DNA of 64,000 nucleotides, taken from Chelativorans alearensis (GTDB lineage Bacteria > Pseudomonadota > Alphaproteobacteria > Rhizobiales > Rhizobiaceae). The notes under the pieces are model-generated. The model did no database searches. It was not told the DNA's origin and worked only from the letters and a program-made list of their open reading frames with translations. The DNA lies in assembly GCF_010993735.1 (NCBI RefSeq), contig NZ_WQNI01000003.1, positions 310,001 through 374,000 of the forward strand. The letters are read 5' to 3'. The first letter of the stretch is position 1. Each line of letters opens with the position of its first letter. Position numbers and translations under genes: made by a program. This document shows, piece after piece, positions 19,306-49,761 of the stretch.

Positions 19306-19337
19306 CATCCGTGGTCAGGGCGGCATGGGCGTCATCG

Positions 19338-24620: not shown

Positions 24621-24731
24621 CGTGCTCCTCCGAACCGGGCGAAGCCCGCCAGGCCGACCGGCCGTCGCGCACTTTTGCGCGCCCCCGCGGAGGGCCAGCC
24701 GCGAAAGCGGCGGCGCGGCCCGTGAGCGAAA
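24621..24731 (-). repeat. Dispersed prophage repeat, copy A
   Basis: This copy fills the gap between two tail genes. It ends with the shared core CGGCCCGTGAGCGAAATC next to the stop of the next gene. Other copies are at 28830–28934, 32008–32133 and 44910–45027, with a variant inside the peptidase gene. All are in the same orientation and contain GC-rich hairpins. Confidence 0.75.
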
Positions 24732-25625: not shown

Positions 25626-26251
25626 TCGCGTAGCTCCTGGAGGAAGATTGAAGGGATGTCGCCGATCGCCGCCGTGCGCAGCGAGATCTGGTCGAGCTTG
25701 CAATCGAACCTGACCGGCACGTGGAACTGGCCGCCCCAGGTCAGGTCCGCGCCCTCGGCCGGTGCGGCGTCGAAGGTGACGATGCCGGTGGCCCGGTCGA
25801 TGGTGTAGCCGGACGCCTGCGCGACGCCGTCGATCGCCACCAGGATCGTGCCGTAGGGCCGCGTGACGACGCGCTCGAAGGTCTCGCCCATGACGGTATA
25901 GGTCTTCACGAGCTGGAAGGCCGTCGTCTCGCCGTCGCCCGTTCCCAGCCCTTGGTCGAGGGGGGTGGGCGCCTTGCCGGGCGGGCCCGATCGGTAGTCG
26001 GTCCAGTCGAGGAAGCGGAAGCCGCGAAGCCGGCCGCGGGCGACATGATAGAGGGAAAGCACCTCGTAGAGCTCATCCGGCGTGCGCACGCCGTATTTCG
26101 CGTCGTAGCTGCGCAGCGGTGCCGACCAGCGTGTGTTGCGCTCCTCGTAGCCCGACGACTTTTCGACGACCTCGGCCGGCCAGTCGGGGCCGCCGGGCGA
26201 GCCCCGGCTGACGTGGATCGGAAAGACGATATCGTCCATGAAGGGCGTCAT
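25622..26251 (-). CDS. DUF2460 phage tail protein (GTA-type)
   Basis: The 209-residue protein has hallmarks IVFPIHVSRGSPGGPDWPAE, then RGRLRGFRFLDWTDYRSGPP and FHVPVRFDCKLDQI. It is the usual partner of DUF2163 and NlpC/P60 proteins at the tail tip. The start is fixed by a TGATG overlap with the tape-measure gene. Confidence 0.85.
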   Translation of the reverse strand: MTPFMDDIVFPIHVSRGSPGGPDWPAEVVEKSSGYEERNTRWSAPLRSYDAKYGVRTPDELYEVLSLYHVARGRLRGFRFLDWTDYRSGPPGKAPTPLDQGLGTGDGETTAFQLVKTYTVMGETFERVVTRPYGTILVAIDGVAQASGYTIDRATGIVTFDAAPAEGADLTWGGQFHVPVRFDCKLDQISLRTAAIGDIPSIFLQELRE

Positions 26252-28059: not shown

Positions 28060-28506
28060 CTAAGCCCCTCTGTGGCTTGCGTTCAGTGCGTCGCGGGCGC
28101 CCATCTCCATCACCTGGATGCCCGAAAGCAGCCCGGCTGACAGCGCGAGCCCGCGGGCGGAAAGGGCGACGGCCATGCCGGCGTAGTCCAATCCGATCCA
28201 GAGCGTGCGCGGCCGGCCGGCCTCGAAGGCAAGTGCAGTGCGCCACTGCGAGGCGCCGCCCACAAAGGCATCGACGGTTTCGCGGTTCTGCGGCCACACG
28301 CCGGAAAAGCCGGCCTCCGATCTAGAGCCGCCAAGCACCACCCTCAACGCCTCGATCTCGGTCTCCGGAAGGCCCCAGCGCCGCGCGTCGCGCACCGCTT
28401 CTTCCTCTTCGTCAGCTTGTCGATGGGCCCCCGCCGCGGTCAGTCCCGAGCTTTTCGAGGGATCAAGAAGCGTCCCTGCCGCCCAGGCCCGCGCGGCGGC
28501 CCTCAG
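28060..28506 (-). CDS. Frameshifted C-terminal part of the tail-assembly chaperone (DUF1799)
   Basis: This frame has no good start of its own and begins exactly where a -1 slip at 28506–28512 would place ribosomes, continuing LRAAARAWAAGTLLDPSKSS. The protein contains RRWGLPETEIEALRVVLGGS and VFGGSQWRTALAFE-like sequence (ASQWRTALAFEAG), typical of DUF1799, which is known as the gpGT-like extension of tail chaperones. The fusion product would be about 256 residues. It directly precedes the tape-measure gene, whose product it should chaperone. Confidence 0.72.
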   Translation of the reverse strand: MRAAARAWAAGTLLDPSKSSGLTAAGAHRQADEEEEAVRDARRWGLPETEIEALRVVLGGSRSEAGFSGVWPQNRETVDAFVGGASQWRTALAFEAGRPRTLWIGLDYAGMAVALSARGLALSAGLLSGIQVMEMGARDALNASHRGA

Positions 28507-28829
28507 TTTCCCGCAAGCGCCTCGGAAAAGGCGCGGTGGTAGGCGGCGATCAACGCGGTGCGGACGTGGGGGACATTGCACAGATGATCGTGCACCGCCT
28601 TTGTGTAGCGCAGCGGCGAGCCATCCTTCGCCTCCACCTCGTCGATGTCCTTTAGCACCTCGTCGAGCAGCACCTTGGTGCCCTCGGGGGTGGAAAGATC
28701 GTGCGCGTTGAACGCGTCCACCGTCAGCGCCCTGAACTTGGCGCGGAAGGTCTCGGTCTCTCCACCTTCGCCCGGACTGCGGACGTTGACGGGGGTCCAG
28801 AACTCGGGTGCAGGGTCGAGCCGGTACAT
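28503..28829 (-). CDS. Tail-assembly chaperone (gpG-like)
   Basis: The 108-residue protein begins MYRLDPAPEFWTPVNVRSPG and has the pattern FRAKFRALTVDAFNAHD that is usual for GTA/Mu-like tail-assembly chaperones. Its last codons GGA AAC before TGA form the slippery heptamer G-GGA-AAC, in the correct frame for programmed -1 frameshifting into the DUF1799 frame. Confidence 0.75.
   Translation of the reverse strand: MYRLDPAPEFWTPVNVRSPGEGGETETFRAKFRALTVDAFNAHDLSTPEGTKVLLDEVLKDIDEVEAKDGSPLRYTKAVHDHLCNVPHVRTALIAAYHRAFSEALAGN
28506..28512 (-). promoter_or_regulatory. Programmed -1 frameshift site GGGAAAC
   Basis: On the minus strand the heptamer reads G GGA AAC directly before TGA. It fits X-XXY-YYZ in the zero frame of the chaperone gene. 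Slipping by -1 gives CTG AGG GCC and enters the downstream open frame. Confidence 0.75.
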
Positions 28830-28934
28830 GTCTTCTCCTTTTTCCTCTTGAGGCGGCGACTGCCGCCCGTTCGACGTTTCGAACGCGCCCGCGCAGGGAC
28901 AGCGCCGAAGGCGCGGTGCGGCCCGTGAGCGAGG
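28830..28934 (-). repeat. Dispersed prophage repeat, copy B
   Basis: This copy fills the gap between the tail-tube and chaperone genes. It contains CGGTGCGGCCCGTGAGCGA, as in copy D, plus internal dyads such as GCGCCGAAGGCGC. Confidence 0.75.
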
Positions 28935-29867
28935 TTATGTCAATGTCAGCGTCCATTGGTCGTTGCCCTCAGCGGGGAGCGGCACCAGGCGCAGCGGCCA
29001 TTCCATGATGTTCTGCGCGTTTTCCAGCCCCTGCGGCCGCTGGAGCTGCGCCTGGGCAAAAGAAAGCGTGGCGGTGCGGCCGGCGGCCGTGCCGTGGACG
29101 AGCGTCAGCGGCACCTCGTCCTGGTCGATCGCGGCCTGGAAGGGATCGAATGTCGAAAGCGGCACCGCTTCCACCTGGACGGTCGCCAGCTCCGACTTGT
29201 CGGTGATCAGGATACTCTCCGAGCCGACCAGGAAGCGCGGCTCCACCTGATTGCCGAGGTTGAGCGAGAAGTTGCGCATGACGAAGTCCTGCGCGTCGAT
29301 CTGGAAGGTCGGCGTGTTGGCGTTGGTCACCAGGTCGGGCTTCAGGAAGGCGGAGAGGTCGGGCACCGGCCGCGCCTGTTCGGCGGGCTGCGCGAAGAGA
29401 CCGCTGAAGTCGAACTCCAGATAGGGGATGCCCTGTGCGTCTGCACGGATGACGCATGTGCCGCGGCTGCCGCGCGCCACGAAGCGCGTCCCGCCGACCC
29501 AGAAATGGATGGTGACGCTCTCGTGGTCGTCGGTGATCGGGTTGTAGACGACGTCGACGCCGGCCGAGACGGTCTCGGCCACCGCGCAGGCGCGCAGGAG
29601 CGGTCCCCAGGCGGGCACCGTGCCGGCCGCCCCAGACGGCACGAGTTCGACGCGAAACTGGAGGCGGATGTGGAGGCCCGACGGAATGGTCGCCTGGGCG
29701 GCAAGCCACGGCAGCTCCAGCTCGCGCGAGACATCCTGGCCTTCCATCGGGGTGAGCACGATGTTGGTGGCGAGGATGGCGTTGTCGCCGCCGGTCGGCG
29801 CGGCATCGGTGCCGTAGGTCGCCTCGGGCTTCGCCAGCAGGATTTTCGAACGCCATTTGATGGGCAT
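28935..29867 (-). CDS. Phage tail tube protein
   Basis: The 310-residue protein opens PIKWRSKILLAKPEATYGTD, the conserved N-terminus of tail tube proteins of Mu-like siphoviruses and GTAs, followed by beta-rich sequence. A good ribosome site (AAGGAG) precedes the ATG. A flexible-tail tube instead of a Mu contractile sheath shows this phage is a siphovirus with a Mu-type genome. Confidence 0.8.
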   Translation of the reverse strand: MPIKWRSKILLAKPEATYGTDAAPTGGDNAILATNIVLTPMEGQDVSRELELPWLAAQATIPSGLHIRLQFRVELVPSGAAGTVPAWGPLLRACAVAETVSAGVDVVYNPITDDHESVTIHFWVGGTRFVARGSRGTCVIRADAQGIPYLEFDFSGLFAQPAEQARPVPDLSAFLKPDLVTNANTPTFQIDAQDFVMRNFSLNLGNQVEPRFLVGSESILITDKSELATVQVEAVPLSTFDPFQAAIDQDEVPLTLVHGTAAGRTATLSFAQAQLQRPQGLENAQNIMEWPLRLVPLPAEGNDQWTLTLT

Positions 29868-29868
29868 A

Positions 29869-30054
29869 TTATTGCTCCTTTATCGCGTCTTCCGCCTTCG
29901 CTTCAGGGGCTGCGGCGGATAGATCGGGCGCGGCGCCAGGCGGCCTGGTGCCGGCGACCTGGCGCAGGCTTCCGTCCTTCTCCCGCGTGAAGCTTCCGCC
30001 GCCCGCCGGCAGGGGCAGCTTCCGTCCGGGCGTCGATTTCGGCGATTTCGTCAT
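29869..30054 (-). CDS. Small basic phage protein
   Basis: The 61-residue protein is rich in Lys, Pro and Gly (TKSPKSTPGRKLPLPAGGGS). It lies between the DUF1834 gene, which it overlaps by a few bases, and the tail tube gene. This position usually holds a short DUF2635-like protein in Mu-type phages. Its function is unknown. Confidence 0.6.
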   Translation of the reverse strand: MTKSPKSTPGRKLPLPAGGGSFTREKDGSLRQVAGTRPPGAAPDLSAAAPEAKAEDAIKEQ

Positions 30055-30539
30055 GCGATGATCCTCACCTGGCTAAGCAGCCCGAAATCGAGCTGGTAGA
30101 TGACGGCGCCGGCCTCGGCCGACAGGAGCTGCCCGCGCGACAGGTGGAAGACGCCGATGGCCTCCGAGCCTGTCGAGGAGTCCGGGCCCCAGCCGCACAC
30201 GCCGTTGACGACGGCCCACAACACCTCATCGATCGTAGGCAGGGCCTTGCCGCCCGTCACGTCGCCGGCCGCCCGCGCGAAGATGACGACGGCGTAGGCC
30301 TCCTCCACAGCTTGCGTGAAGGCGCCGGCGGCTGCGTCTCCGGAGCTCTGCGGGCGCAGGCCGAGCGGCAGCACGAAGGCGAAGGGAGAAGCCTGCGGCA
30401 GCGCCTTGCGGCGGACGAGCTCCGACAGCTCGGCCGCCGTCTGGACGCGCCCGGAAAGCTGCGGCACCTCAGCCTCGATGCGGGCCTGGAGGTCAGCTAC
30501 CAGCAACGCCGCCTCCCGGTGGTGAGCTTGTCGAACCAT
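30051..30539 (-). CDS. DUF1834 (Mu gp37-like) neck/tail protein
   Basis: The 162-residue protein contains GGKALPTIDEVLWAVVNGVCGW and ends LDFGLLSQVRIIA, matching DUF1834/Gp37 proteins located between the tail terminator and tube genes. The first ten codons (VRQAHHRE) derive from a copy of the short GTTCGACAAGCTCACC repeat, so the original start may have been different. Confidence 0.7.
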   Translation of the reverse strand: MVRQAHHREAALLVADLQARIEAEVPQLSGRVQTAAELSELVRRKALPQASPFAFVLPLGLRPQSSGDAAAGAFTQAVEEAYAVVIFARAAGDVTGGKALPTIDEVLWAVVNGVCGWGPDSSTGSEAIGVFHLSRGQLLSAEAGAVIYQLDFGLLSQVRIIA

Positions 30540-31038
30540 CGTCGTTCTCCACGCCCAGCCAGTCGGCCGAGAGCTGGATGATTTCCGCCTCGTCGTCGGC
30601 GTCGAGACCGAGGAAGGCGCGCCGCGGCATCGTCACCTCCTGCTTGGTGACCCACTGGCCGTTGCCGGCCGATCGGAAACGCAGGCCCTTGGGCGTCTTC
30701 GCGCGGATCGTGCCGCCGGTCTGATGGATGCCGGCGTAGATGACATTCGTGCCGACCGCGACGGAGCTCTCCGTCGCCTCGTGCGTGATGGAGGAGACGA
30801 GCCGGGCCGTCATGGTCAGCGTGCGGCCGCCTTCCAGCAGCGCGCGCAGAGACGCCGGCCAGGGGTTGCCCTCGGGATCTTCCTCGCGTTCGAAGCGGGC
30901 TTGCGTCGAGACGACGAGCGAGGCGCCGACCGCGTCGAACAGGCCGCGCTTGTCCTCGGTCCTGTCGATCGTCCGCGCCAGCACGGCGAGCGCCTCCTCG
31001 GCGCCGTCCAGCGTCACTTCGAAGCGCGCGCCGGCCAT
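30493..31038 (-). CDS. Phage virion morphogenesis / tail completion protein (Mu gpG-like)
   Basis: The 181-residue protein has a core SLVVSTQARFEREEDPEGNP then THEATESSVAVGTNVIYAGIH, the signature of Phage_tail_S/gpG proteins. The ATG at 31038 is chosen because it overlaps the upstream stop. Confidence 0.8.
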   Translation of the reverse strand: MAGARFEVTLDGAEEALAVLARTIDRTEDKRGLFDAVGASLVVSTQARFEREEDPEGNPWPASLRALLEGGRTLTMTARLVSSITHEATESSVAVGTNVIYAGIHQTGGTIRAKTPKGLRFRSAGNGQWVTKQEVTMPRRAFLGLDADDEAEIIQLSADWLGVENDDGSTSSPPGGGVAGS

Positions 31039-31466
31039 CAGATGAAACCCTTCATGCTCTTGACCGTCATCGGCCGCTCGCACTCGCCGACGCGCACCTC
31101 GGCGGCGCCCGAGCCTGGCGGCTCGACGCCGTCGATATCGAGCTTGATGAGGCCCTGGGCGATGCGCTTGAGGGTGGCCAGCGCCTCCTCGTAGTCGCGC
31201 TTGATCTTCTCCTCCGCCACATGGGCATGGGCGTAGTAGATGGAGACACGCAAGGAGAGATCGCGCACGAGGTGCGGCACGCTTGCAAGCGGCAGCCGGT
31301 AGCGGGCGGCGAGATACCCATCGATCAGCGCATCGGCGTCGGCGATCGCGCGGGTAATCAAGTCCCCGTCGATCGTGCCCGTAGGCGCGTCGCCGCGGTC
31401 GGAGATGTCGATCAGCATCCGCTCCGAATAGCGCTCGATCAGCTCTTGAAGCGTGCAGTAGGCCAT
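31038..31466 (-). CDS. DUF1320 (Mu gp36-like) head–tail protein
   Basis: The 142-residue protein begins MAYCTLQELIERYSERMLID and contains DADALIDGYLAARYRLPLAS, the DUF1320 pattern. It is probably a head-completion/connector protein. The start at 31466 removes a non-conserved upstream extension. Confidence 0.85.
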   Translation of the reverse strand: MAYCTLQELIERYSERMLIDISDRGDAPTGTIDGDLITRAIADADALIDGYLAARYRLPLASVPHLVRDLSLRVSIYYAHAHVAEEKIKRDYEEALATLKRIAQGLIKLDIDGVEPPGSGAAEVRVGECERPMTVKSMKGFI

Positions 31467-31473
31467 CGGCGCC

Positions 31474-32007
31474 TCAGACGAGCTCCACCTTGAGCTTCGG
31501 CTCGGCGAGGAGCCGCTCCAGCTCATCCACCGTGAAGCGGCCGGCCGGATGGTCCGTGGCCGCCTTCGGGTGACGCATACCACAGCGGCGGAAGCCGTCG
31601 CGCCGGGCGGCGATGCGGATCGTCGGGTTCAGGGCCTCGGGTTTCTCGGCCCGGCCCCACGCCTCCAAGGCAGCCGCCAGCCGGGGATAGCGTTCGAAGA
31701 ACTCTTCGCGTGTCATCGCCTCGGGAAGGACGAGGCCGCCTCCGTCCGTGTCTGTCGTGGGGCCGGCCTCGTCCCCATCCGGTTCGGGACCGGCATTTTT
31801 CCCTTCCAGGTTGGCGCCGGTCCCTTCCACTTGCGGAGCGGCGGGATGAACTCCTACGCGCGACCTTTCCAGGGACGCCGCCCCACTGTCGGTGCTGGGG
31901 GCCTTGCGAGCCGCACCAGGCCCCTCCTTCTCGATGGAGTCCGTTTGCGGCGCCGCGGCCGGCCTGGCGGCCCCCGCAGTTTTCGCTTTGCTTGCACGCT
32001 TCGCCAT
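31474..32007 (-). CDS. Mu-like HI1506-type protein
   Basis: The 177-residue protein has a low-complexity Ala/Lys/Glu N-terminal part and a compact C-terminal part, TREEFFERYPRLAAALEAWG then HPAGRFTVDELERLLAEPKL, resembling HI1506-like proteins found after the capsid gene in Mu-type phages. Its function is unknown. Confidence 0.65.
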   Translation of the reverse strand: MAKRASKAKTAGAARPAAAPQTDSIEKEGPGAARKAPSTDSGAASLERSRVGVHPAAPQVEGTGANLEGKNAGPEPDGDEAGPTTDTDGGGLVLPEAMTREEFFERYPRLAAALEAWGRAEKPEALNPTIRIAARRDGFRRCGMRHPKAATDHPAGRFTVDELERLLAEPKLKVELV

Positions 32008-32133
32008 TTCGTTTCCTTCCGCGAGTTTCCGCCCCGGCCTGAAGGCCGAGGCCGCGACTGCGGCCCGGCGATCGTTCGCCGCGCCCGCGCAGGGCCCGCC
32101 GCCATCAGGCGGCGATACGGCCCGTGAGCGAAA
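32008..32133 (-). repeat. Dispersed prophage repeat, copy C
   Basis: This copy sits between the capsid gene and the HI1506-like gene. It ends ACGGCCCGTGAGCGAAATC beside the capsid stop and contains the dyad GGCCGCGACTGCGGCC. Confidence 0.75.
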
Positions 32134-33027
32134 TCAAGCCAGCCAGGGTGACACGAGCAGCTCGGCCGTGTTGCGGTAGGTGTTGGTCGCGCCGGCCGCG
32201 TCGCGCTCGGCCTTCAGCACGTCGAAGGCCGGCCCCTCGTTCGACGGCGAGACGACCAGGAGATTGGGGCGCAGGCCGAGCGGCCGGCCGTAGTCGCCCT
32301 TCATTTCCATGATGGCCACGCGCGCCGCGATATACCGCTCCTTGGTGAGCGGCTGCGACGAGGCGAAGACCATCTGCCAGAAGCCATAGCCCACGTTGCG
32401 GCGGCAATCGACGCCGTACATGAACTCCTTGTTCGTGAACACGTTGGAGTCGCGCGGGTTGTCCTTGGCGACGAACATCGGTTTCTTGCGTTCCTGGAAG
32501 ATGTAGGGCTTCAGTGAGCGCCCGGTCGCCATCAGGAACCACGGTGCCGCGCCGCCCTCGTCCGTATTCGACACCGAATAGGGCGTGCCGTCGGCATCGA
32601 GCACCGGATGATCGCCGTCGTAGAAGTTCTGGCCGTCGTAGCACTCGCGCGACCAGCCTTCCTTGGCGGCGTCCCACACGAGCAGATCGGGTTGGGCTGC
32701 GACCGACTCGCCCGCCTCGACGAACATCGGCTCGTAGACGCCGAGATTGTCGTCCTCGATCTCGTCGCGGTCGACCCCGTAGGTCAGCTCCCAGGAGATG
32801 TTCTTGATCGCGTAGTCGTGCTCGGCAATGCCGTGCACGGCGCGCGGGCCGACCCACTGTCGCAGGTTCGGCAGCTTGCCGAGCCAGCCGTACTTGTTCT
32901 CCCTGGTGGTCGAGGGGACGGTGGTGGCGATCTGTCCGTATTCGCTCTCGGCCTGGCCGAGGCCGCGCCGGAAGGCGGTGGAGAAGCCCACCCTGATGGC
33001 ATCGAGATTGGCGGTGTTGATGATCAT
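32134..33027 (-). CDS. Major capsid protein (Mu gpT family)
   Basis: The 297-residue protein begins MIINTANLDAIRVGFSTAFR and contains NKYGWLGKLPNLRQWVGPR and NFYDGDHPVLDADG, all typical of Mu gpT major heads. The length fits the family (~300). It is preceded by the decoration and protease/scaffold genes, in Mu order. Confidence 0.92.
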   Translation of the reverse strand: MIINTANLDAIRVGFSTAFRRGLGQAESEYGQIATTVPSTTRENKYGWLGKLPNLRQWVGPRAVHGIAEHDYAIKNISWELTYGVDRDEIEDDNLGVYEPMFVEAGESVAAQPDLLVWDAAKEGWSRECYDGQNFYDGDHPVLDADGTPYSVSNTDEGGAAPWFLMATGRSLKPYIFQERKKPMFVAKDNPRDSNVFTNKEFMYGVDCRRNVGYGFWQMVFASSQPLTKERYIAARVAIMEMKGDYGRPLGLRPNLLVVSPSNEGPAFDVLKAERDAAGATNTYRNTAELLVSPWLA

Positions 33028-33069
33028 GAATGCGTCCTCGGTGAAAACTGTCCTGAGCTTGTCGAAGGG

Positions 33070-33501
33070 TCAGGCGAGCCGGGCCATCGCCTCGTCGAAG
33101 CGCACCCAGACGCCGAGATCGTCGAGGTGGTCGACGAAGCCGGCGGGAGAGCGCGTGCCGGTGCCGTCGGTCTTGGCTACCGTCTGGTCGTCGACAGCAA
33201 AGCAGGGCGCGCCGATGTCGGCGATCGTGATCTCGTCGGCGGCGGCCGAGTTGGCGAAGCGGAAGGTGCCGGCCCGGTACTTGACCGAAATGTCGCCGTC
33301 GGCCCCGGCCGCATTGTCGGCGCGCTTCTCGGCCCGGCCGACGCCGTAAAGGCCGGCGGCCGTCTGGCCCTCGACCAGAAAGCCGGCGGCGTCGCGCATG
33401 ACGATCGCGCCGGCATAGATCAGCGTCGAAGCGGCGACGCCGCCTTCGCGCATGTCGCCAAGGGCGGCGGCGGTGTTCCTGTCTTGGGTCAGAGCAGTCA
33501 T
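33070..33501 (-). CDS. Capsid decoration-like protein
   Basis: The 143-residue protein begins MTALTQDRNTAAALGDMREG and has beta-rich repeats like other DUF2190-type head decoration proteins found between protease and capsid genes. It overlaps the protease stop by one base. A copy of the short CCTGAGC-TGTCGAAGGG repeat lies just after its stop (~33047–33072). Confidence 0.7.
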   Translation of the reverse strand: MTALTQDRNTAAALGDMREGGVAASTLIYAGAIVMRDAAGFLVEGQTAAGLYGVGRAEKRADNAAGADGDISVKYRAGTFRFANSAAADEITIADIGAPCFAVDDQTVAKTDGTGTRSPAGFVDHLDDLGVWVRFDEAMARLA

Positions 33502-34628
33502 CAGAGCGCCTCCTGGTTGGCCTCGCGCTCGGCCTTGAGCGTCTCGGCGTAGTCCTTCGGGTCTTGGCCGAGCATGCGGCAGACGGCGAGTTCCTCAGCC
33601 TGGAGTGCAATCTCGCCCTCCTTCGCGGGCGGCTCGGTCGGCACCAGCACGTTGTTCGCGCCGAGCGTCGGCAACGCGCCGATCTCCTTCTCGACATCGG
33701 CCGGATTCTGCATGTGGCGGGCGACGTAATGGTCGCGCATCGGCTTCACGCCGACGCGGCCCGATTTGATCGCCCCGTCCACGAAGGCCTCGGCCGCCTT
33801 CCTCGCGCTCGATTCCTTCAGCGTCTTCAACTCGCCGGCCACGGTCGTGAGTTCGGCCTGGAGCGCCTTCACCGTGTCGCCGCCCGTCTCGCTCCCGCCG
33901 CCGGCCTCCTGAGCCTGTCGAAGGGTCTCCACGCCGGCGAGCACGGCAGCGGCGCCCGCGTCCTCTTTCAGCCCCGCCGCTTTGGCGATCGGCGCCAGTG
34001 CGGCTTGCAGCGCGGTGGCCTCCTTCGCCTGGCGCGCGTTAAGCGCCGTCACCGTCTCCACGAGCTTGTCGGCGGTGGTCTCGGCCGGCAGGCCGAGCGA
34101 TTTCACGAGCTGTTCGAGCAGTTCGTCCATGTCGGTCTCCTGATGAAGCGCGGTGAGCCCGCGCAGGTTGGGACGGTTGACCAGCGAGGCGCGCAGGATG
34201 GCAAGCACCTCGCCGTTCTTGGTGTGCTGGATGACGGGGGAAATGCCGCGATAGGCGCGGCCCTCGACGAGGCGCTGGCCCTCCTCGGTCCATTCGACGC
34301 GGCCCCAGACGCCGTCGCCACGCGCCTGGAGTTCGACGATCCAGCCGCGCGCCGGTGCCGGCAGCCCGTTGGGGGCGGCAAGGTCGGTCGAATGGTTCTC
34401 GTCGATCGGCAGTCGTCCACCGTTCGCGGCTGCGATCACAGCGGCGGCGTCGCGCACCCGGTACGGCCCGCGGCCGTCGCCCGTCGCGATCTCTCCCGCG
34501 GGCAGCAGGTGGACCCAGTCAGGCGCGCCCGAGCTTGCCTGCGGGAGGGCCAGGTCGGCACACAGCGCCACGTCCCCGGCCGGGGCGGCGGCGTGCATGG
34601 CAAGGAAGGTGCGCAGGCGGCGAAACAT
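33501..34628 (-). CDS. Mu gpI-like prohead protease/scaffold
   Basis: The protein has 375 residues from an ATG at 34628. The N-terminal protease-like domain has RLPIDENHSTDLAAPNGLPA (conserved D-x-x-H) and RAYRGISPVIQHTKNGEV. A long Ala/Glu/Lys helical C-terminal half then acts as scaffold, as with Mu I/Z. The open frame continues 18 codons upstream without conservation. It is the first gene after the CRISPR array on the same strand. Confidence 0.85.
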   Translation of the reverse strand: MFRRLRTFLAMHAAAPAGDVALCADLALPQASSGAPDWVHLLPAGEIATGDGRGPYRVRDAAAVIAAANGGRLPIDENHSTDLAAPNGLPAPARGWIVELQARGDGVWGRVEWTEEGQRLVEGRAYRGISPVIQHTKNGEVLAILRASLVNRPNLRGLTALHQETDMDELLEQLVKSLGLPAETTADKLVETVTALNARQAKEATALQAALAPIAKAAGLKEDAGAAAVLAGVETLRQAQEAGGGSETGGDTVKALQAELTTVAGELKTLKESSARKAAEAFVDGAIKSGRVGVKPMRDHYVARHMQNPADVEKEIGALPTLGANNVLVPTEPPAKEGEIALQAEELAVCRMLGQDPKDYAETLKAEREANQEAL

Positions 34629-34830
34629 GGCGGCAGCTTCGCCGCGATGCGGGCGCGGAACCATGCCCGTGGACGCGGGCATGTGTCGGGTTTCAGACGG
34701 GGGCCCTCTAGAAGAGACCGCCGCGACCGGCGGACGCCAAGGCTGTCACGCCGCCGCCGGGGTGGTCAACCATTCAAGCCCGGCAAGCACTTACTCTTCC
34801 TTGCGGCCTCGTCAACACCTCCTATCAGGA

Positions 34831-35260
34831 GGTGAAGTACCCGTCATCCAGGGGTGTTCTCCAGCTCCGCGCCCTGAAGGGAGAGCGGGATGGGTGGTGC
34901 AGTCCCCTGTCATCCAGGGGTGATCTCCAACGCCGCGCCCTCTCTGCACAAGGGAAGGAGGGGTGCAGTCCCCCGTCATCCAGGGGTGATCTCCAACCGC
35001 TCTCAAGGAGACCGAAGATGGCAAGTGGTGCAGTCCCCCATCATCCAGGGGTGATCTCCAACAGTCTACAAGGAGACCGAAGAATGAAAATCGGTGCAGT
35101 CCCCCGTCATCCAGGGGTGATCTCCAACCCGAAATCATGGCGCTGTTTGCAAACACGAGGTGCAGTCCCCCGTCATCCAGGGGTGATCTCCAACGTGCTG
35201 TGGCTGTTCTTCGGGTTCGCCGTGGGTGCAGTCCCCCGTCATCCAGGGGTGATCTCCAAC
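34831..35260 (-). CRISPR. Type VI-A CRISPR array, 7 repeats and 6 spacers
   Basis: The repeats are 36 bp at 34896–34931, 34962–34997, 35027–35062, 35093–35128, 35159–35194 and 35225–35260. A decayed 35-bp repeat at 34831–34865 marks the trailing end. The spacers are 29–30 bp. On the minus strand each repeat starts GTTGGAGATCACCCC and ends GGGGGACTGCACC; CCCC and GGGG can pair around an 8-nt loop. From memory it closely resembles the R. capsulatus Cas13a repeat (ATCACC...GACGGCGGACTG), which sits 5' of the spacer. The array is thus read leftwards, like cas13a, and the decayed repeat is last. Single-base variants occur in the 34896 and 35027 copies. Confidence 0.97.
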
Positions 35261-35296
35261 CGCATATCGCAGAACCCCTTGTTTCGAGCAACGAAT

Positions 35297-38200
35297 TCAC
35301 GCTCGCCGGTGCCGATTCTTGTGCCCACGATTGGCCTTTCGCGCGCGTCCCGTCGGTTTTTTTCCACCCCCGTGCTTCTTCTGTTCCCGTTGCCTGCTCC
35401 AATCGATGGAATCGAGGCGGAGTTCGCTGACGCATCCTTTCCCCCGCCATCTATCCGAGACGCGGCCGCCGAAGAGCTCCGCCGCCATCTCGACAAAATC
35501 CGCTCCATGCAGGTCCTCCATGATGAAGAAACCCTTGCCGTCACGCCCGTCCCCGCTCACGGGAAATAGCCGCAACTTGCCAAGATGTTGCGCCTGGCGC
35601 GAAGACAAGACGGCTTCGGCCAGATCGTGCGCTCCCGCGCGCGTGTGCACGGCCCACGCAATATTGAGACCCTCGCGCGCCAGGAGATCGATAACGGATT
35701 TCGATACGGCGTTCTTCAGCTTGCGGTCGTGCTTCATCAGCTGTCGCGCCCGGTTGATGCATTCGGTTAGGTTCGGCGGCTGGGCGGCTCGAAGCATGTT
35801 GAAATGCGCGAAGGCGTTGCGGATACCGCCGATCGGGTCGCCCCTCTTGAAGGCGCTGCCGAAATGGGGGAATAGGCCCGAGCGGAGAGCGGACGCGTTA
35901 GAGGAACCGTTGAGCTTCCGAAGAGCATAGACGATCTGTCCGTTACGCAACAGATCAATACCTTCATTCTCGAACACCTCCCGTGGCGTCTTCCCGGCGC
36001 GGTGAAGCAGCGCGAGTGTCGCGAAATACAAGTCCCGCTCCCATAGACCGGAGAAATCCGCGAGCCGGCCAAGCACCGCCATCATCAGACGGTGCAGGCG
36101 CACATGATTGGTCAGCGTCACGTGAGCGGCGAGATGGCGGTGGCGGACAATTTCGGCCAGCGCTTCGACATAGGCCCGCCGATCTTCCGGGCCAAGTCCT
36201 TCCTTCTTGGCCTCCACCCATTTCGCGTGCAGTTCCTCGCGCCTTGCCTGCAGCCGCGCGATCTCCGATCTGCCGCCCGCGTCGGCTACTTCGGCACGCC
36301 GGTACCGCTCGATATTCGATTTCGTTGCCGGGCGGCGGCCATAGATCGAAAGCAGCGGCGGCAAGTCGCCGAACCGCATGATTTCGCGCAAACCCCTCAA
36401 GGGAACGCGGCGGTCCTCCTCATACCCCTGTTGCGGTGGAAAGATCGTGTCGAAGCCGTCGCTTTCCTCGAACAGCTTTCGGAACGGCTCGATGCCGGTG
36501 AGCGCTTCGCCACCCTCGAATTTGGCGTCGTGGAGGTCGAGATAGAGGGTGAAGACGCGCTGTACCTTATCGACGAGTCTTGCCTGGCCCCCATCGGCAA
36601 CGGGCGCAGTGCGGTCATGGGCGAGCAGGTCCCACTTCCGCATCTGGTGCAGCAGCCTGCCGATCTCGTCGACGGGCACCAGGTGCACCAGGAAATAAAG
36701 CACGGCCTCCCAATCCTCGGCGTCGGTGTCGACCGCGGGATCGGGGAGCTCCGCGGGATCGAACCGGTGCGCTTCAGCTATTGCCGCTTCCGGATCGAGC
36801 GTGCGCAGAAAATCGAAACCCTCTGTCTCGAGAAAGCTGCGATAGGCGAGCCCGACCACATCGCATTTGAGGTCTTCGATATATTCCGCCTGTTGGCGCG
36901 CCCTTTCACCGTCGCTCTCATAGGCTTGCTGAACACGCATCTCGCTTGCCGTCTCGGCCGACAGCTCGAAGAAGAAGCCGTGAATGTCGCCGCCGTCGGG
37001 AACCTTCCCAAGCTTTTCGGCGCGCGCGACGATGATGTCGCGCCAATCGTCGCTTTCCTTCGTGTTGAGGGTTCTCGCCGCATCGCTCGCCCTTGTTACC
37101 GCACGGTAGATAAATCCGTTGAGTTTCGCGGCGCTGCGGCCCTCCAGCCAGCGCCGGAACGGGCGCTCGTAGAGAAGCTTCAGCCCGGTATACTGGCAAA
37201 GTCGGCCACGTTGCTCCAGATCGAGGCGATTGACCGGCGGGGGCAACACGTCCTCGGCTTCCCACGCACCCTTGGCGCGCCGCAGCACGCGCGAGAAGCG
37301 CGGCAGCGGCAGGCTACCGGGCTCGGCCCCGGTCACCGCACGATAGATCGCCTCGACCTGCCCCTTGGAGAGATAGACACCGAAATGCGCACCGACCATC
37401 GTGGCGCGCACCTGCCGCGATTGGTCTTCGATGTCTTCGACGAGGAGGGTCCGCAAGGCCCGCGTCACGTCCGGGAAGCGATCGATCTCATTGAGCCCGC
37501 CGATGCCCTCAAGCGCCTTGACGAACCCGCCCCGGCCGGCGAAGTGAAATGACTTATGGCGCAACGCCGCCATGCCCTTAATAGCCGTCTTCAGCACCGC
37601 CTTCTTGAATGCCAGGTCGGGCGCAGCGGTGAAATGAGAAGCGCGCTTTCCGAACAATAGCGCGCATTTCCGGTTGAAGGCGGCTTCGTCGAACTTGGCG
37701 CCCGTTGCGTCGTTTGCCTTGCCCAGAATATCGCTTCCGATCTCACCGTGCGGGTCGCCCCAATCCGTCAGCGTCCGGGCAGCGAGCACCACCACATGGC
37801 GCCAGACACGCACAAAGGCTTCGTTGCGCTTGATCTCCGCCTGGCCGGCGCTGGTCCAATAGTGGCTGCCCGCCAGATCGCCCGGCCAGTTCTCGGTGAT
37901 GCTTTCCGGATGGTCTGCGTTCGGGTCGGACGCGGTATAGTGGATGACCTTGCCCAGCCGCACCAGGGCATTGAGGTCGCGATTGCCGCGGCCGGATATG
38001 ATCCGTGCGAACAGTTCGTCCATATCGCGCGGCAGCACCTTGCGGATCGGGCTCACGTCGCCGTTTTCCCGCTCACGGCGGCCCGGTGCCTTCTTTTTGT
38101 GGTGCTTCAGGATGCGCGCATAGCAATCCTTCACGGCCATGTGCAGGGCGAAAAGGCCGGGTTCCTTCTCAATCGCTTCCCGGATAGAAAGTGCCTTGCC

Positions 38201-38974
38201 GTCGGGACCGGGGAAGATTCTCGCCCAATGCTCGAAGAGAACGCCGCCGGCGACGCTATTCGTCACGCGCTTGGTACCGGCGCCATCCCTGCCGTTTTCG
38301 CGGCTCAGCGCGGCGTCCCATATCTGTTTGGCAACGTCGGCGACGCGATAGGCCTGGAGATCCCGGTCGCTCCATTCAGGCTGGCCGCAGGCGGAGGAAT
38401 CGGCCGGCCGCAATACGTTGACGGCGATGCTCCTGGCGCGCGCGGCGATGCATCCGTCCGGCTTCCTCCCGTCGCCGCTGATCCGGTATTCGGCGTCGTA
38501 AAGATGCTCATGTATCTTCGCGGCGATTTCGCCCGCGTCGACATCGGCGACATCGGCCTCGCCGGCGAAGGCGCCATACCATCGACCCTTTGCGCTCGCG
38601 GGTCTCTCATTGGGTCTAAGATCGCCATAGGGCGCGATCTTCCTCCTCCATATCTTGGCCAGCCTGTCCGCACGGTCTGCGTCCGCCAGCCCCGGCAACA
38701 GTGCGTTGCGCACCAGAAGCGCCCAGGCGGCCTTGCCGATACGATCCCTGAAGGCGCGCTGTTCTTCAGTCGCGCCTTTGCGCGGGCCAGGCTTGGCGGC
38801 GATCTTGTCGATGGTCGATACCCACTGCGCAACGACGAGCTCGTCGTGATCTCTGGCAAACGCCTCGATATCGAGCTTGCTATCATGGTCCGGACGCAGC
38901 GTGAGGACGCGTTTCCGTTCGCCGGCCCCGTCGTGTTCGACAAGGGTCCGGCCGTAAGGCTTGATGATGCGCAT
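35297..38974 (-). CDS. cas13a: Cas13a (C2c2), type VI-A CRISPR RNA-guided RNase
   Basis: The protein has 1,225 residues, within the Cas13a range. It has two R-X4-H HEPN motifs: RHKSFH (R472/H477) in the middle and RNAFAH (R1052/H1057) near the C-terminus. In Cas13b they lie at the extreme ends, so this spacing and the repeat favour VI-A. The C-terminal tail is very basic (KKPTGRARKANRGHKNRHRR). Cas13a processes its own crRNA and, once target RNA is paired, cuts target and bystander RNA. GGGGGAG precedes the ATG. The stop is 36 bp before the first repeat, so gene and array may share a transcript. No cas1/cas2 is present. The base composition resembles the phage, so it is not a very recent import. 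Confidence 0.95.
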   Translation of the reverse strand: MRIIKPYGRTLVEHDGAGERKRVLTLRPDHDSKLDIEAFARDHDELVVAQWVSTIDKIAAKPGPRKGATEEQRAFRDRIGKAAWALLVRNALLPGLADADRADRLAKIWRRKIAPYGDLRPNERPASAKGRWYGAFAGEADVADVDAGEIAAKIHEHLYDAEYRISGDGRKPDGCIAARARSIAVNVLRPADSSACGQPEWSDRDLQAYRVADVAKQIWDAALSRENGRDGAGTKRVTNSVAGGVLFEHWARIFPGPDGKALSIREAIEKEPGLFALHMAVKDCYARILKHHKKKAPGRRERENGDVSPIRKVLPRDMDELFARIISGRGNRDLNALVRLGKVIHYTASDPNADHPESITENWPGDLAGSHYWTSAGQAEIKRNEAFVRVWRHVVVLAARTLTDWGDPHGEIGSDILGKANDATGAKFDEAAFNRKCALLFGKRASHFTAAPDLAFKKAVLKTAIKGMAALRHKSFHFAGRGGFVKALEGIGGLNEIDRFPDVTRALRTLLVEDIEDQSRQVRATMVGAHFGVYLSKGQVEAIYRAVTGAEPGSLPLPRFSRVLRRAKGAWEAEDVLPPPVNRLDLEQRGRLCQYTGLKLLYERPFRRWLEGRSAAKLNGFIYRAVTRASDAARTLNTKESDDWRDIIVARAEKLGKVPDGGDIHGFFFELSAETASEMRVQQAYESDGERARQQAEYIEDLKCDVVGLAYRSFLETEGFDFLRTLDPEAAIAEAHRFDPAELPDPAVDTDAEDWEAVLYFLVHLVPVDEIGRLLHQMRKWDLLAHDRTAPVADGGQARLVDKVQRVFTLYLDLHDAKFEGGEALTGIEPFRKLFEESDGFDTIFPPQQGYEEDRRVPLRGLREIMRFGDLPPLLSIYGRRPATKSNIERYRRAEVADAGGRSEIARLQARREELHAKWVEAKKEGLGPEDRRAYVEALAEIVRHRHLAAHVTLTNHVRLHRLMMAVLGRLADFSGLWERDLYFATLALLHRAGKTPREVFENEGIDLLRNGQIVYALRKLNGSSNASALRSGLFPHFGSAFKRGDPIGGIRNAFAHFNMLRAAQPPNLTECINRARQLMKHDRKLKNAVSKSVIDLLAREGLNIAWAVHTRAGAHDLAEAVLSSRQAQHLGKLRLFPVSGDGRDGKGFFIMEDLHGADFVEMAAELFGGRVSDRWRGKGCVSELRLDSIDWSRQREQKKHGGGKKPTGRARKANRGHKNRHRRA

Positions 38975-39133
38975 AGCTAAGCTCCCCCATTTTACCCAAG
39001 CTTGAGAAGCCTAGCACAGACGGAGGCCGGTCACTGGAGAATTGAGCCGTTAAACGGGTTTTGAACGGCGTGGAATGCGGCGAGCGCGTCTCAGGCCTCC
39101 AACCCTCTTTGCGCGCGTTCCCCAGCAGGCCCG

Positions 39134-39574
39134 CTACACAAAGGACCAGATTCCCAGAACGAATCGAACACCGGCGACTAGCGCGAAGAAGAGGGAAACG
39201 GCACAGAAAATTGCCACCCATTTCGACCTGAGGACATTCTTCGTCGGCACCCGCGTAGGAAGCGCCGACATGACCCAAATTGCCACGACGAGCGCGGCTA
39301 CTGCATGGGCGGCCGCCCAACGAAGGTGGGCAGCCGTATTTGCGGGAGGCTGCGTGCCAAGGATCGCTGCAAACGCGGCCGTGCCAGCAATTATAATGGA
39401 GGAGGCGGTGAGGATGCCGGTCATCTGTGAGATGATCACTGTCGCTCCAAGCTGACGTTCGTTGGCGTCCGGCTCGTTTCCCCCTTCGCTAGGCCGACCA
39501 CGCCAAAATCCGATGCTGATGGCGATCCATATTGCGAGGAGGAGGAGCTCGACAACCGGCCACTCGGTCAGCAT
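39134..39574 (-). CDS. Four-TM membrane protein upstream of cas13a
   Basis: The 146-residue protein has four hydrophobic helices: VVELLLLAIWIAISIGFW, LTASSIIIAGTAAFAAIL, AHAVAALVVAIWVMSAL and WVAIFCAVSLFFALVAGVRF. Acidic loops follow the first. I recognise no family. It lies 160 bp before cas13a on the same strand, inside the same insertion in the head operon. In type VI-B systems small membrane proteins (Csx27/Csx28) modulate Cas13, so a role as accessory is possible but unproven. A superinfection-exclusion protein is an alternative. Confidence 0.65.
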   Translation of the reverse strand: MLTEWPVVELLLLAIWIAISIGFWRGRPSEGGNEPDANERQLGATVIISQMTGILTASSIIIAGTAAFAAILGTQPPANTAAHLRWAAAHAVAALVVAIWVMSALPTRVPTKNVLRSKWVAIFCAVSLFFALVAGVRFVLGIWSFV

Positions 39575-39592
39575 GTGCGACGTCCTCTCACT

Positions 39593-40147
39593 TTATCGGC
39601 CTTCCGAAACGAGGGGAGCGTCGAACACTGTTGAGAAATAGTCTTCAGGATCCTGTGGCAACGCGTCGACCGCCGCTCTCAGCTTATCGACATCGCCTGC
39701 CTCGACGTATGCCGACAACGCTATAGCATCATCCCCGAGGGCCTCTTTGATGAGAGTGCGCTCTTTCACGTCATAGAATGCGGACATCTGAGCATCCCAG
39801 CTAAACTCCACAAGTGGAGGCTTGTTTGGCCAGAAACACAAAGTGATGAAAGCCGCGCGATAGTCGGAGTCCTGGAGCGCCGCTCGATCGCTTCTGCGAG
39901 CGATCTCGGATGCGATGGTCTGCGCGGCGGCCAGTAAACCGATGTATCTACCCATATCTTCCTGGGTGGCATCCGGCCATTCGATCCCGAGGCGCCCAGC
40001 AAGAGGGTATTCTGCGGCAATCTCCTGAACGCGTTCTGAAATGATAATGGGTGTGAATTCCTGCGTCGGCGTTGCGCGTTCCGTCTGTGCCGAAGCTTCG
40101 GCACTCAGAACAACGAGCACTGCCGCAGCCAACATGGTGGCTCGCAT
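39593..40147 (-). CDS. Hypothetical secreted protein upstream of cas13a
   Basis: The 184-residue protein has a clear signal peptide (MRATMLAAAVLVVLSAEASA, cut likely before QTER). The mature part is helical, acidic and has a single Cys in FITLCFWPNKP. The start at 40147 follows GGGAGG; the larger open frame upstream is a shadow. It ends 18 bp before the membrane-protein gene, so the two are probably co-transcribed and exported or membrane-associated together. No known family is recognised. Confidence 0.65.
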   Translation of the reverse strand: MRATMLAAAVLVVLSAEASAQTERATPTQEFTPIIISERVQEIAAEYPLAGRLGIEWPDATQEDMGRYIGLLAAAQTIASEIARRSDRAALQDSDYRAAFITLCFWPNKPPLVEFSWDAQMSAFYDVKERTLIKEALGDDAIALSAYVEAGDVDKLRAAVDALPQDPEDYFSTVFDAPLVSEGR

Positions 40148-40323
40148 CCCCCCCTCCCTGTTTCGTGCACACACACTGAACGGGAAAATGGTACGATGGG
40201 GCGCGCGTGCAGTCAATGAAACCGCCTCTACCAAGAATTGTCTATACATCGCGCAGAATTGTATACCGATAGTGGTCGCCTCTCGTTGCCGGCGAAACAC
40301 AACGATCTCTGGTGGATGGCCAA

Positions 40324-41031
40324 TCAAGCGGCAAAGCGAAGGCCGACTATGCCCACATTGTAACCAAAGCCCGGATCGATCCCGGCCGGCGTCTCCACGG
40401 GCCGGCCGCGCACGAACCGGATCACCGTGCGCGAGGGAGGCGCTTCTGCCGACACCGCCCAGCGGTAGCGCGCCACGTCGCGCTCCGACAGCGACTGCAC
40501 GTAGCAGCGGCAGTTGAATCCGTTGGGCGGGTAATGCGTCAGCCACCACTCGTGATCGACCGGCAGGATGACGCCGTTCCATTCGGCGTGCTCGTGGCGG
40601 GAGCCCGGTTGCATGAGGTTCGGGTCGACATGGACGTAGCGCAGATAGGGGCGGACCCGCTTCAACCGCTGGATTTGCCGCCAGCGGCCGGCGGCGTAGG
40701 CCTGTGCAGTGAGCACGCGGAACGTGAGCGCGGCGCGCCGGCCATGGGGATCGTCTCCCGAGCCCGTCGAAGAGGACCAGCCGTGGCGCTCGACCAGTTC
40801 GTCCCATGCCTCGAGGAACGGCGCGAAGCCGGTTCCTTCTTCTACGGACTTCAAAACCTCGCGCAGGATGTCCGTCGCCAATGCCGCGGACATGCCGGCG
40901 GCACGCTCGCGCGCGGCCGCGTCCACTTCGCGTGCCAGCTCCTCGAAGCGGCCGGGCGGGATTTCCAGCCGTCGGCGCAGGAAGCCGATGGCCTCCTCGT
41001 TGCGCACGGACTGGACCTCGGCGCTAGGCAT
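40324..41031 (-). CDS. Mu gpF-like head morphogenesis protein
   Basis: The 235-residue protein contains GVILPVDHEWWLTHYPPNGF followed by NCRCYVQSLSERDVARYRW, the Phage_Mu_F signature with its Cys pair. It is shorter than Mu gpF (~400+ residues) and may be a minimal form. It overlaps the portal stop. Downstream, the head operon is interrupted by the accessory block (secreted protein, membrane protein, cas13a, array) before resuming with the protease gene. Confidence 0.85.
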   Translation of the reverse strand: MPSAEVQSVRNEEAIGFLRRRLEIPPGRFEELAREVDAAARERAAGMSAALATDILREVLKSVEEGTGFAPFLEAWDELVERHGWSSSTGSGDDPHGRRAALTFRVLTAQAYAAGRWRQIQRLKRVRPYLRYVHVDPNLMQPGSRHEHAEWNGVILPVDHEWWLTHYPPNGFNCRCYVQSLSERDVARYRWAVSAEAPPSRTVIRFVRGRPVETPAGIDPGFGYNVGIVGLRFAA

Positions 41032-42610
41032 CGCCGCGGTCGGCCTCGACGGCCTCACCCGAAAGCCAGGCGAGCATGATGGCCTGGCGCATGGCCGCGA
41101 CCAAACCCGGCGAGGCCTCCTTTTCCGCCGCCGCCCGCTCAAGGGCGGCCGCCGCCTCGTCCAGGCCGCCGGCGCGTTCCACGATGCCGCGCACCCTCTC
41201 CACGAGCGCCGCGATCGCCGGGCCGGCCGCGCCGAGCGCGGCATCAGCGATCATGTCTTCGCTCACCTGCGGCGGCGGTTCCAGCCGCTGTTGAAGGGCC
41301 GGTTCCGGAGCACGTGTCGGCGGCTCCGCGGCGGGCGCGGGCGAAGCGGGCGCCAGCACCTCCGCCCCTTTCTCCGGGTCGGAGAACCCGAATTTGTCGC
41401 GCACCTCGCTCGCCTGCACGCGCAGGCCCACCGGCACCAGCCGCGCCAGCGCATTGGACAATAGGTCCAGGTCCTCCTCGTCCGGCCGGGCGATGCGCAC
41501 GCGTGGATAGAGCCCTCCTGAGCCTGTCGAAGGGGGCCCGTATTCGAGGTCCATCCACACGCGGATGAGGTCGCGGTTGATGATGGCCGAAAGCGCCTTC
41601 GAATCGGCACGCTCGATATCCTCCTGCACCTGCCGGTGCTCGCGCGAGACCGCGTGGCCGCCCGACACCGCGTCCGTTGTGGTCGTCTGCCCGAGCACGC
41701 CCTTGGACACCTGCTGATCCAGCCAGTCCGCGCGCTCCTTGTAGTTGGAGTGCCCGGTGCCGAGGTTCTTGGCCTCCTGGAACTCGATCGACATGCTTTC
41801 CGGCATGATCGCCGCGCAGTCGCCGGCAATGTCCGCCACGGCGCGGTAGAGCTTGTCGCGGTCCTCCTGGGTGGCGCCGGGGCCGTACTTGCCGATGCGG
41901 ATCGGCTGGCCGTAGGTCTGCGTGAAGATCGCCCAGTCGCGCTGGGTGAACGCCTTGAACATCCAGGCCCACATCACCACGCGCGCCAGGCCCGAGCGGA
42001 TCGGCAGGCCGGACTTGGCGCGGATCACCGCCGTGATGAACTTGCCGCCCGGCAGCGGCGTCTCCTGGCCATGATCGTCCAGAAGCAGCGGCGTCGTCAG
42101 GTCCTTTCGCGCCGGGCGGAACCAGCGCGGATCGCGCCATTCCAGCCGCGCCGGCCGCCACTGGCCCTCGGAGGTGTCCCAGATGATCTCAGTGAAGGAA
42201 TAGCCCTTGCCGACGGCGTCGAGGATGTCGAACAGCTCGTCGGAGAGTTCGTCGCGCGTCAGCCAGTCGCGCACCATATCCGCCTTGGCAACGTCCTCCT
42301 TGTCGTCGGATGCCGCGTCCACGGTGATATCGATCTGCGAGACCGAGCGGCGGCGCGTGCCGAGCACACCGACATAGTGCAGGTCGCGCTCCTCGATCGT
42401 CTCGGCGAGCTCCAGATAGCGCAGCGGGCCGCCCTGGTCGGCCTCGCGCAGGATGCGCGCCAGCCGGTCGGGTGTCAGCCCGTCTCCCGGATAGCCGGTG
42501 ATGGGCGAACGCACGCCGGTGGTCGTGGGGGCGGCGATCTCCTCGGTCAGCGTCCTCTTCTCGATCGGCCGCCCGTTGGCGTCGGTCAGGCCACGATAGA
42601 ACTCCGGCAT
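41024..42610 (-). CDS. DUF935 portal protein (Mu gp29-like)
   Basis: The 528-residue protein has hallmarks YLELAETIEERDLHYVGVLG, RRSVSQIDITVDAASDDKED and GLARVVMWAWMFKAFTQRDW, diagnostic of DUF935 portals. It forms the dodecameric head vertex through which DNA is packaged. It overlaps the terminase stop by one base. It contains a copy of the STGSG-encoding repeat near 41514–41536. Confidence 0.92.
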   Translation of the reverse strand: MPEFYRGLTDANGRPIEKRTLTEEIAAPTTTGVRSPITGYPGDGLTPDRLARILREADQGGPLRYLELAETIEERDLHYVGVLGTRRRSVSQIDITVDAASDDKEDVAKADMVRDWLTRDELSDELFDILDAVGKGYSFTEIIWDTSEGQWRPARLEWRDPRWFRPARKDLTTPLLLDDHGQETPLPGGKFITAVIRAKSGLPIRSGLARVVMWAWMFKAFTQRDWAIFTQTYGQPIRIGKYGPGATQEDRDKLYRAVADIAGDCAAIMPESMSIEFQEAKNLGTGHSNYKERADWLDQQVSKGVLGQTTTTDAVSGGHAVSREHRQVQEDIERADSKALSAIINRDLIRVWMDLEYGPPSTGSGGLYPRVRIARPDEEDLDLLSNALARLVPVGLRVQASEVRDKFGFSDPEKGAEVLAPASPAPAAEPPTRAPEPALQQRLEPPPQVSEDMIADAALGAAGPAIAALVERVRGIVERAGGLDEAAAALERAAAEKEASPGLVAAMRQAIMLAWLSGEAVEADRGDA

Positions 42611-44909: not shown

Positions 44910-45027
44910 GCCCGCCTCCAATACGCCCAAAGTGCGAGCGCGCGACCGCGCGCCGGCCGCGTTCGGCCGCCCCCGCGGAGAGCCAGCGCCGAAGGCGCGG
45001 TGCGGCCCGTGAGCGAAAGAAGCTCCA
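44910..45027 (-). repeat. Dispersed prophage repeat, copy D
   Basis: This copy fills the gap between the small terminase gene and the preceding gene. It contains CGGTGCGGCCCGTGAGCGA, identical to copy B over 19 bases, and the dyad GCGCCGAAGGCGC. Confidence 0.75.
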
Positions 45028-49757: not shown

Positions 49758-49761
49758 CGCT

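Follow-up and report, generated by a model that had tools for sequence, protein, structure and literature searches.

A type VI-A cas13a locus in the head operon of a Mu-like prophage of Chelativorans alearensis, with start-site-like motifs in some of its spacers

A cas13a gene and CRISPR array among Mu-like head genes

A type VI-A cas13a gene and a compact CRISPR array lie side by side in the window (the whole stretch of 64,000 nucleotides of Chelativorans alearensis DNA analysed here), and together they occupy a slot in the head operon of a Mu-like prophage, with the F-like head gene on one side and the I protease gene on the other (Table 1). The product of the effector gene aligns with family NF038188 over the entire model (positions 1-1192 of 1192) at 874.6 bits, the cut-off being 150, which places it in the VI-A family. 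The closest solved chain found with phmmer is a Cas13a (7os0), which we take to be the Rhodobacter capsulatus enzyme. The two R-X4-H motifs expected of the HEPN domains are present (RHKSFH at 472 and RNAFAH at 1052), with R472, H477, R1052 and H1057 invariant among the six sequences aligned. No cas1, an optional adaptation module, was found in the host genome with PF01867, a model that was positive in 9 of 14 control genomes.

Head and transposition genes of the Mu type occur together on one element (PF06074, PF04233, PF10123, PF10124, PF11985 and PF09299), which identifies it as a Mu-like prophage, and the virus contig recorded for it in IMG/VR is identical to the window over the part compared (29300-44974). 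The terminase of the prophage is not of the gpA type, and a PF05876 search of the host genome found no terminase of that type. In the slot equivalent to that of the cas13a locus, Rhodobacter phage RC1 and Rhodovulum phage RS1 carry small hypothetical genes and Thiobacimonas phage ThpS-P1 has 126 bases. Third-position GC content (GC3) is 0.756 in cas13a versus 0.83-0.91 in five flanking late genes. The contents of the slot in other Mu-like phages and the lower GC3 of cas13a therefore fit cargo gained by the phage. The hydrophobic protein encoded upstream of cas13a, whose gene has a similarly low GC3 (0.667), is possibly part of this cargo.

Table 1. Features of the prophage and of the cas13a locus, in window coordinates
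Feature	Position	Strand	Evidence or remark
Virus contig extent in IMG/VR	18036..57795	.	UViG_2889914905_000002, 39,760 bases, converted to window coordinates
Mu-like gpT major head protein	32134..33027	-	PF10124
Mu-like I protein (protease), next late gene	33501..34682	-	PF10123
Degenerate terminal repeat, trailer end	34831..34865	-	35 nt
Spacer 1	34866..34895	-	Target strand GGAG-ATG, weak start signature; alternative open frame RALKGERDG
Six near-identical 36-nt repeats, five spacers between	34896..35260	-	crRNA strand GTTGGAGATCACCCCTGGATGACGGGGGACTGCACC
Spacer 2	34932..34961	-	Target strand ends in AAGGGAAGGAGG, no start codon inside
Spacer 3	34998..35026	-	Target strand AAGGAG-7-ATG, strong; probable stop/start junction
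Spacer 4	35063..35092	-	Target strand AAGGAG-8-ATG(A), strong
Spacer 5	35129..35158	-	No SD-start signature; sense match inside gpA-type terminase large subunit gene, frame EIMALFANT
Spacer 6, cas13a-proximal	35195..35224	-	No SD; frame VLWLFFGFAV
cas13a, 1225 aa, type VI-A effector	35297..38974	-	NF038188, 874.6 bits; phmmer to 7os0
146-aa hydrophobic protein	39134..39574	-	159 bases upstream of cas13a, same strand; no family over cut-off
Mu F-like head protein, upstream late gene	40324..41244	-	PF04233
Mu portal protein	41024..42610	-	PF06074
Terminase large subunit, not gpA type	42610..44316	-	phrog_2; no Pfam match
Mu-type transposition genes	51797..54842	-	AAA ATPase 51797-52549, transposase 52599-54842; PF13401, PF00665, PF09299

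The array (34831-35260) consists of six 36-nt repeats, one degenerate 35-nt repeat that marks its cas13a-distal end, and six spacers of 29-30 nt; the host genome holds no second copy of the repeat with up to 3 mismatches allowed. The hairpin of the repeat folds at -12.2 kcal/mol on the minus strand and -11.8 kcal/mol on the plus strand, energies so nearly equal that folding alone does not fix the strand. In three relatives (L007, L015 and L075) the repeat ends in GGGGGACTGCACC on the cas13a strand, downstream of cas13a. As the repeats of these relatives follow the cas13a strand, which is the minus strand here, the crRNA is assigned to the minus strand and the target RNA to the plus strand, and the idea that the spacers were being read on the wrong strand was rejected. 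The array thus adjoins its effector gene and its hairpin repeat lies on the strand of that gene, as expected of a VI-A locus. The first-pass annotation had the coordinates and letters of all six spacers right, as well as the logic of crRNAs antisense to a plus-strand target. We regard the anatomy of the locus, its strand, its intact motifs and its prophage setting as established.

Start-site signatures and target matches of the six spacers

Read on the target strand, several spacers resemble translation start sites, with a Shine-Dalgarno (SD) core followed by a start codon. We scored a 30-mer as carrying such a signature when a 4-8-nt match to TAAGGAGGTGA stood 2-12 nt before an ATG, GTG or TTG. 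As a null we used 66,133 30-mers taken from five annotated Mu-like phages along their main sense strand, a set in which a few opposite-strand genes are read antisense (the main strand being taken as sense) and two members, RC1 and RS1, have closely similar gene maps. Signatures occur in this null at 7.3% (weak), 2.3% (middle) and 0.65% (strong), and among the window spacers in 3/6 (P=0.0065), 2/6 (P=0.0072) and 2/6 (P=0.0006), respectively; the lowest threshold tried gave 3/6 with P=0.023. No signature was found on the crRNA strand (0/6). Dinucleotide shuffles gave P=0.004 for three signatures at the weak threshold, and two strong ones were reached in 0 of 4000. An SD hexamer anywhere in the spacer was seen in 3/6, versus 1.9% of the null (P=0.00013; reached by 3 of 2000 shuffles), and an SD 5-mer also in three of the six (P=0.014; 229 of 2000 shuffles). 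All of these P values are uncorrected, several definitions having been tried and the motif having been chosen after viewing these same spacers.

The individual spacers differ in how far they bear out the start sites that the first-pass annotation had read in them. Spacers 3 and 4 do carry SD-ATG sites, with strong AAGGAG and ATG signatures. Spacer 1 has the GGAG core and the ATG that had been taken for a start site, but its signature is weak, and spacer 2 does end in an SD (AAGGAGG) but with no start inside. Spacer 6, likewise proposed as a start site, has neither an SD nor a start signature. Spacers 3 and 4 have 15 identical nucleotides in common (CAAGGAGACCGAAGA); in random draws a shared 14-mer came up with a frequency of 0.004, and two pairs with 9 nt in common with one of 0.003. 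Nine nucleotides (CCGCGCCCT) are also common to spacers 1 and 2. When spacers 3 and 4 are merged as one unit, the signature P values become 0.046 and 0.032. The annotation's claim that at least four of six spacers with an SD would be very unlikely by chance is therefore too strong, since the P values are uncorrected, the motif is post hoc and two of the spacers share 15 nt: the comparison with shuffles and with phage 30-mers leaves a nominal excess (3/6), which shrinks to the 0.03-0.05 range after merging.

Searches for the targets gave no full-length protospacer, the best matches covering 26 of 30 positions for spacer 4 and 24 of 30 for others. Searches with the whole array reached at best E=2 in INPHARED phages and E=0.1 in PLSDB plasmids. 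Among 151 relatives, at least 47 places in at least 40 genomes reached E<=0.1, the array itself included, and the best foreign hit among the best four candidates scored per genome (E 0.002) is chance-like. Sixty gpA-type terminase or lambda-type portal loci of relatives contained no spacer site, the mean best match lying within 0.7 bases of the reversed-spacer control for each spacer. In IMG/VR, 20-nt pieces of spacers 1 and 2 matched the prophage itself only, and a degenerate codon pattern of spacer 5 matched only itself.

Spacer 4 agrees at 26 of 30 positions (BLAST E only 2) with an annotated ATGA overlap between two hypothetical genes of Klebsiella phage KMI8, and two related Klebsiella phages also appear at an E of 2 among the matches listed. 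Twenty-two nucleotides match exactly in UViG_2903377991_000002 (L031), at a junction between a lambda-type portal gene, whose last codons read KETEE-stop, and an S49 peptidase gene that begins with ATGA; this phage has a gpA-type terminase. A difficulty for an anti-phage role in the present host is that the portal of L031 is closest to those of Aeromonas phages and that KMI8 infects Klebsiella. The core common to spacers 3 and 4, extended by TG, is present in 16 other IMG/VR contigs. Taking as a junction a Lys-Glu frame open for at least 90 codons before the core and at most 35 after it, plus a frame opening at the ATG, we judged the core to lie at a stop/start junction in 8 of these 16 (L023, L027, L028, L029, L031, L032, L033 and L034, with L029 counted although its contig runs out after 15 codons); L035 gives an ambiguous picture and the other seven lack such an arrangement. 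Because of these eight contigs and the junction matches in KMI8 and L031, spacers 3 and 4 probably correspond to overlapping stop/start junctions.

Spacer 5 tells a different story. Apart from the prophage's own record, IMG/VR has two contigs with an 18-base piece of it. In both, the piece falls on the sense strand, in the frame IMALFAK and at an equivalent site of two related proteins that are 56% identical across 191 residues. The sites are at about codon 107 of a gene that Pfam assigns to the gpA-type terminases and at about codon 98 of a related fragment. Spacer 5 thus has sense-strand matches in gpA-type terminase genes, and as these are internal, its ATG is not the start that the first-pass annotation had made of it. 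The search against phages that the annotation had put forward as a check therefore speaks for its reading in the case of spacer 4, found at stop/start overlaps, and against it in the case of spacer 5, found mid-gene. For spacer 6, a match in L038 was set aside, the site being antisense to an open reading frame, as was another in L039. Two further matches (L041 and L047), also set aside, occupy equivalent positions in two chromosomal membrane proteins that resemble each other, presumably RND pumps.

The SD-like appearance of the spacers could be a by-product of sense coding, with AAGGAG standing for Lys-Glu (as in ALKETEDGK, RALKGERDG and RALSAQGKE) and the ATGs fortuitous. Spacers 1-3 indeed have a frame open through the SD, one of the contigs with the core (L024) holds it within a long frame, and in the annotated phages of the null a true start lies within only about 45% of strong and about 19% of weak signatures. 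Set against this are the eight of 16 contigs with the core at a junction, and spacer 4 itself, whose Lys-Glu frame ends at a TGA overlapping the ATG just as in KMI8 and L031. We consider this explanation possible, if doubtful.

Start sites in other VI-A arrays

Selection for ribosome-binding sites might act because the crRNA-Cas13a complex blocks initiation there or sees RNA best there, with SD-bearing guides being retained. To score spacers of other VI-A loci in the same way, we assembled 54 distinct spacers from L007 (7), L015 (13), L016 (2), L018 (6), L073/L075 (16), L156 (6) and L157 (4). For L016 an irregular gap beside a degenerate repeat was left out, for L073/L075 the 16 are those distinct among 23 spacer instances (two overlap by a 5-base shift), and the repeat edges of L157 are uncertain by a few nucleotides. 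The degenerate repeat of L016 (near 5850-6130, in the array of genome G274) stands well apart from the regular repeats. A scan of L017 (genome G339) found no VI-A-like array.

An SD followed by a start codon is no more frequent than expected among these 54 spacers, with 5/54 on the target strand (P=0.36) and 6/54 on the crRNA strand; the middle signature is found in 2/54 (P=0.35) and the strong one in 1/54 (P=0.30). The comparison with other Cas13a arrays that the first-pass annotation had called for thus finds that SD-plus-start is not shared, and a VI-A-wide preference for complete SD-start sites was rejected. The SD hexamer (2/54, P=0.27) and 4-mer (22/54, P=0.11) are not in excess either. 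The bare SD 5-mer is, at 13/54 on the target strand versus 9.7% (P=0.0016), a count reached by 3 of 2000 shuffles (mean 5.9), with 4/54 on the crRNA strand; as the excess concerns one of three core lengths, we treat it as a lead that falls short of a result. A pool of the window with all of these loci except L156 and L157 (50 spacers) gave signature P values of 0.004-0.03, which are low because the window spacers drive them. Searches of the L075, L015 and L007 arrays against phages returned no protospacer, nearly all hits of L075 being to its own portal gene or beside it.

Selection for ribosome-binding sites is hence unlikely to have shaped the array. It would explain the nominal excess in the window and its restriction to the target strand, and the 5-mer excess elsewhere; moreover, dead Cas13 is described as a translation-level repressor in bacteria (PMC11193725). 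Its difficulties are that spacer 5 lies mid-gene in a terminase, that spacer 6 has no SD, that spacers 3 and 4 share much of their sequence, and that the other arrays show an excess at one motif length only. As reported in the T4 experiments of PMC9712115, LbuCas13a restricted the phage alike with early-CDS, mid-CDS and RBS guides. Cleavage could suffice, because the window Cas13a keeps both R-X4-H motifs. The first-pass annotation's suggestion of an array directed at ribosome-binding sites is accordingly not supported, given spacers 5 and 6 and the 5/54 found elsewhere. The data hint at SD-like cores in VI-A spacers, not at a start-site rule.

Spacers 1-4 might instead sample one homologous junction, the portal end and protease start, across phages with gpA-type terminases, as the nucleotides shared within the two spacer pairs and the match of spacer 4 to this junction in L031 would suggest. 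We find this improbable: among 31 portal loci given, 22 yielded the junction and L031 alone held the core, seven junctions of four annotated phages are without it, the best match of spacer 4 is the unrelated KMI8 junction, and spacers 1 and 2 found no match. That the array regulates genes of the prophage or the host, as its position in a phage late operon and on the same strand could suggest, is very improbable, as the matched targets are foreign head genes and the 5.7-Mb host genome gave no convincing second spacer site: among the best 4 of 29 candidates, a number that could let a weak self match be missed, the one site at E<=0.1 is a 21-nt hit (E 0.097) lying about half within the repeat.

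Phage-borne Cas13a and its possible role

The window locus is not alone in its association with phage genes. A relative of its Cas13a, with an array, adjoins a P2-like portal gene in L073 and L075, two contigs of one metagenome. L073 also has a gpP-like terminase, and its cas13a, the 5' end of which is cut by the contig, is accompanied by 11 repeats. The two arrays (L073 2820-3520 and L075 1530-2400) have seven spacers in common at one end but not the same ones at the cas13a-proximal end, and their first spacers overlap, offset by 5 bases, a pattern that suggests spacer turnover in this phage-borne VI-A locus. A second Cas13a beside Mu-like genes (L074/L155) was not counted as phage-borne, because a tRNA-Met gene lies between and no array was present in the stretches read. 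In genome G404, a VI-A array of six spacers accompanies a partial cas13a match, and about 1.4 kb separate this array from a second one, of 107 repeats, whose repeat is different (L156, 27-7114 and 8558-8989); a full cas13a adjoins Mu-like genes on another contig of this genome, where an array was not found. Cas13a is rare, being detected in 5/385 genomes of the class, 1/398 of the phylum and 4/394 of the family (the own genome counted in each, and one of the family matches below the cut-off), and it was found in neither INPHARED nor PLSDB. Our literature search found no report joining Cas13a, Mu-like and prophage.

Several known systems share parts of this arrangement. The VI-A locus of R. capsulatus, as described in PMC11089165, resembles that of the window in having Cas13a with an array directly downstream and six spacers in all, but it is chromosomal, with cas1 and two arrays, whereas the window locus lies in a Mu-like prophage and has no cas1 by PF01867. 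CRISPR systems encoded by phages have been reported before (PMC7162821, PMC12676247). The compact arrays of PMC7162821 have a median of six repeats and some of their spacers match core structural genes of other phages, as here, but they come from huge phages, unlike the Mu-like phage of the window. The position of the L073/L075 locus beside a P2-like portal recalls the defence hotspot beside portal gene gpQ of P2-like phages; the E. coli P2/P4 hotspots, in the account of PMC9122126, hold short systems and no CRISPR-Cas, whereas L073 has cas13a with 11 repeats.

A close parallel for the strand of the guides is the type VI-B system of Flavobacterium columnare, whose natural spacers match the mRNA strand of the phage only (n=15, later n=19), a strand that spacer 5 of the window also matches. 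Freshly acquired spacers match the mRNA strand about half the time, and the authors invoke selection after acquisition (PMC8092290). Besides its type, the F. columnare system differs in borrowing Cas1 from a II-C locus of its own genome (PMC8092290). Sense-strand guides, some of them near starts, are therefore what selection of this kind would leave.

We consider it probable that a Mu-like prophage carries the VI-A cas13a gene and its array as cargo, with sense-strand guides directed against other phages. The phage, integrated as a prophage, carries the effector and six-spacer array in its head operon, without adaptation genes. The array would be transcribed on the cas13a strand and its crRNAs would anneal to sense RNA from other phages, upon which the HEPN nuclease of Cas13a would cut RNA and halt the infected cell, so that lysogen and prophage would be protected from competitors. 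A guide may be retained when it matches a sense transcript that is accessible; of the six, two are probably on overlapping stop/start junctions and one is mid-gene in a terminase. A bolder version, in which VI-A arrays keep guides to SD-like RNA that ribosomes can reach and the Cas13a of the Mu-like phage guards its lysogen through the stop/start junctions of rivals, one guide touching two genes, seems to us quite unlikely.

The setting, with cas13a in a Mu-like head operon and a relative beside a P2-like portal, is a stronger find than the start sites. Targeting of start sites would tell which region of an mRNA is most visible to Cas13 under natural conditions. Should Cas13a indeed be carried by Mu-like and P2-like phages, RNA-targeting immunity would spread between bacteria as phage cargo, and prophages would fight their rivals by an RNA-triggered route.
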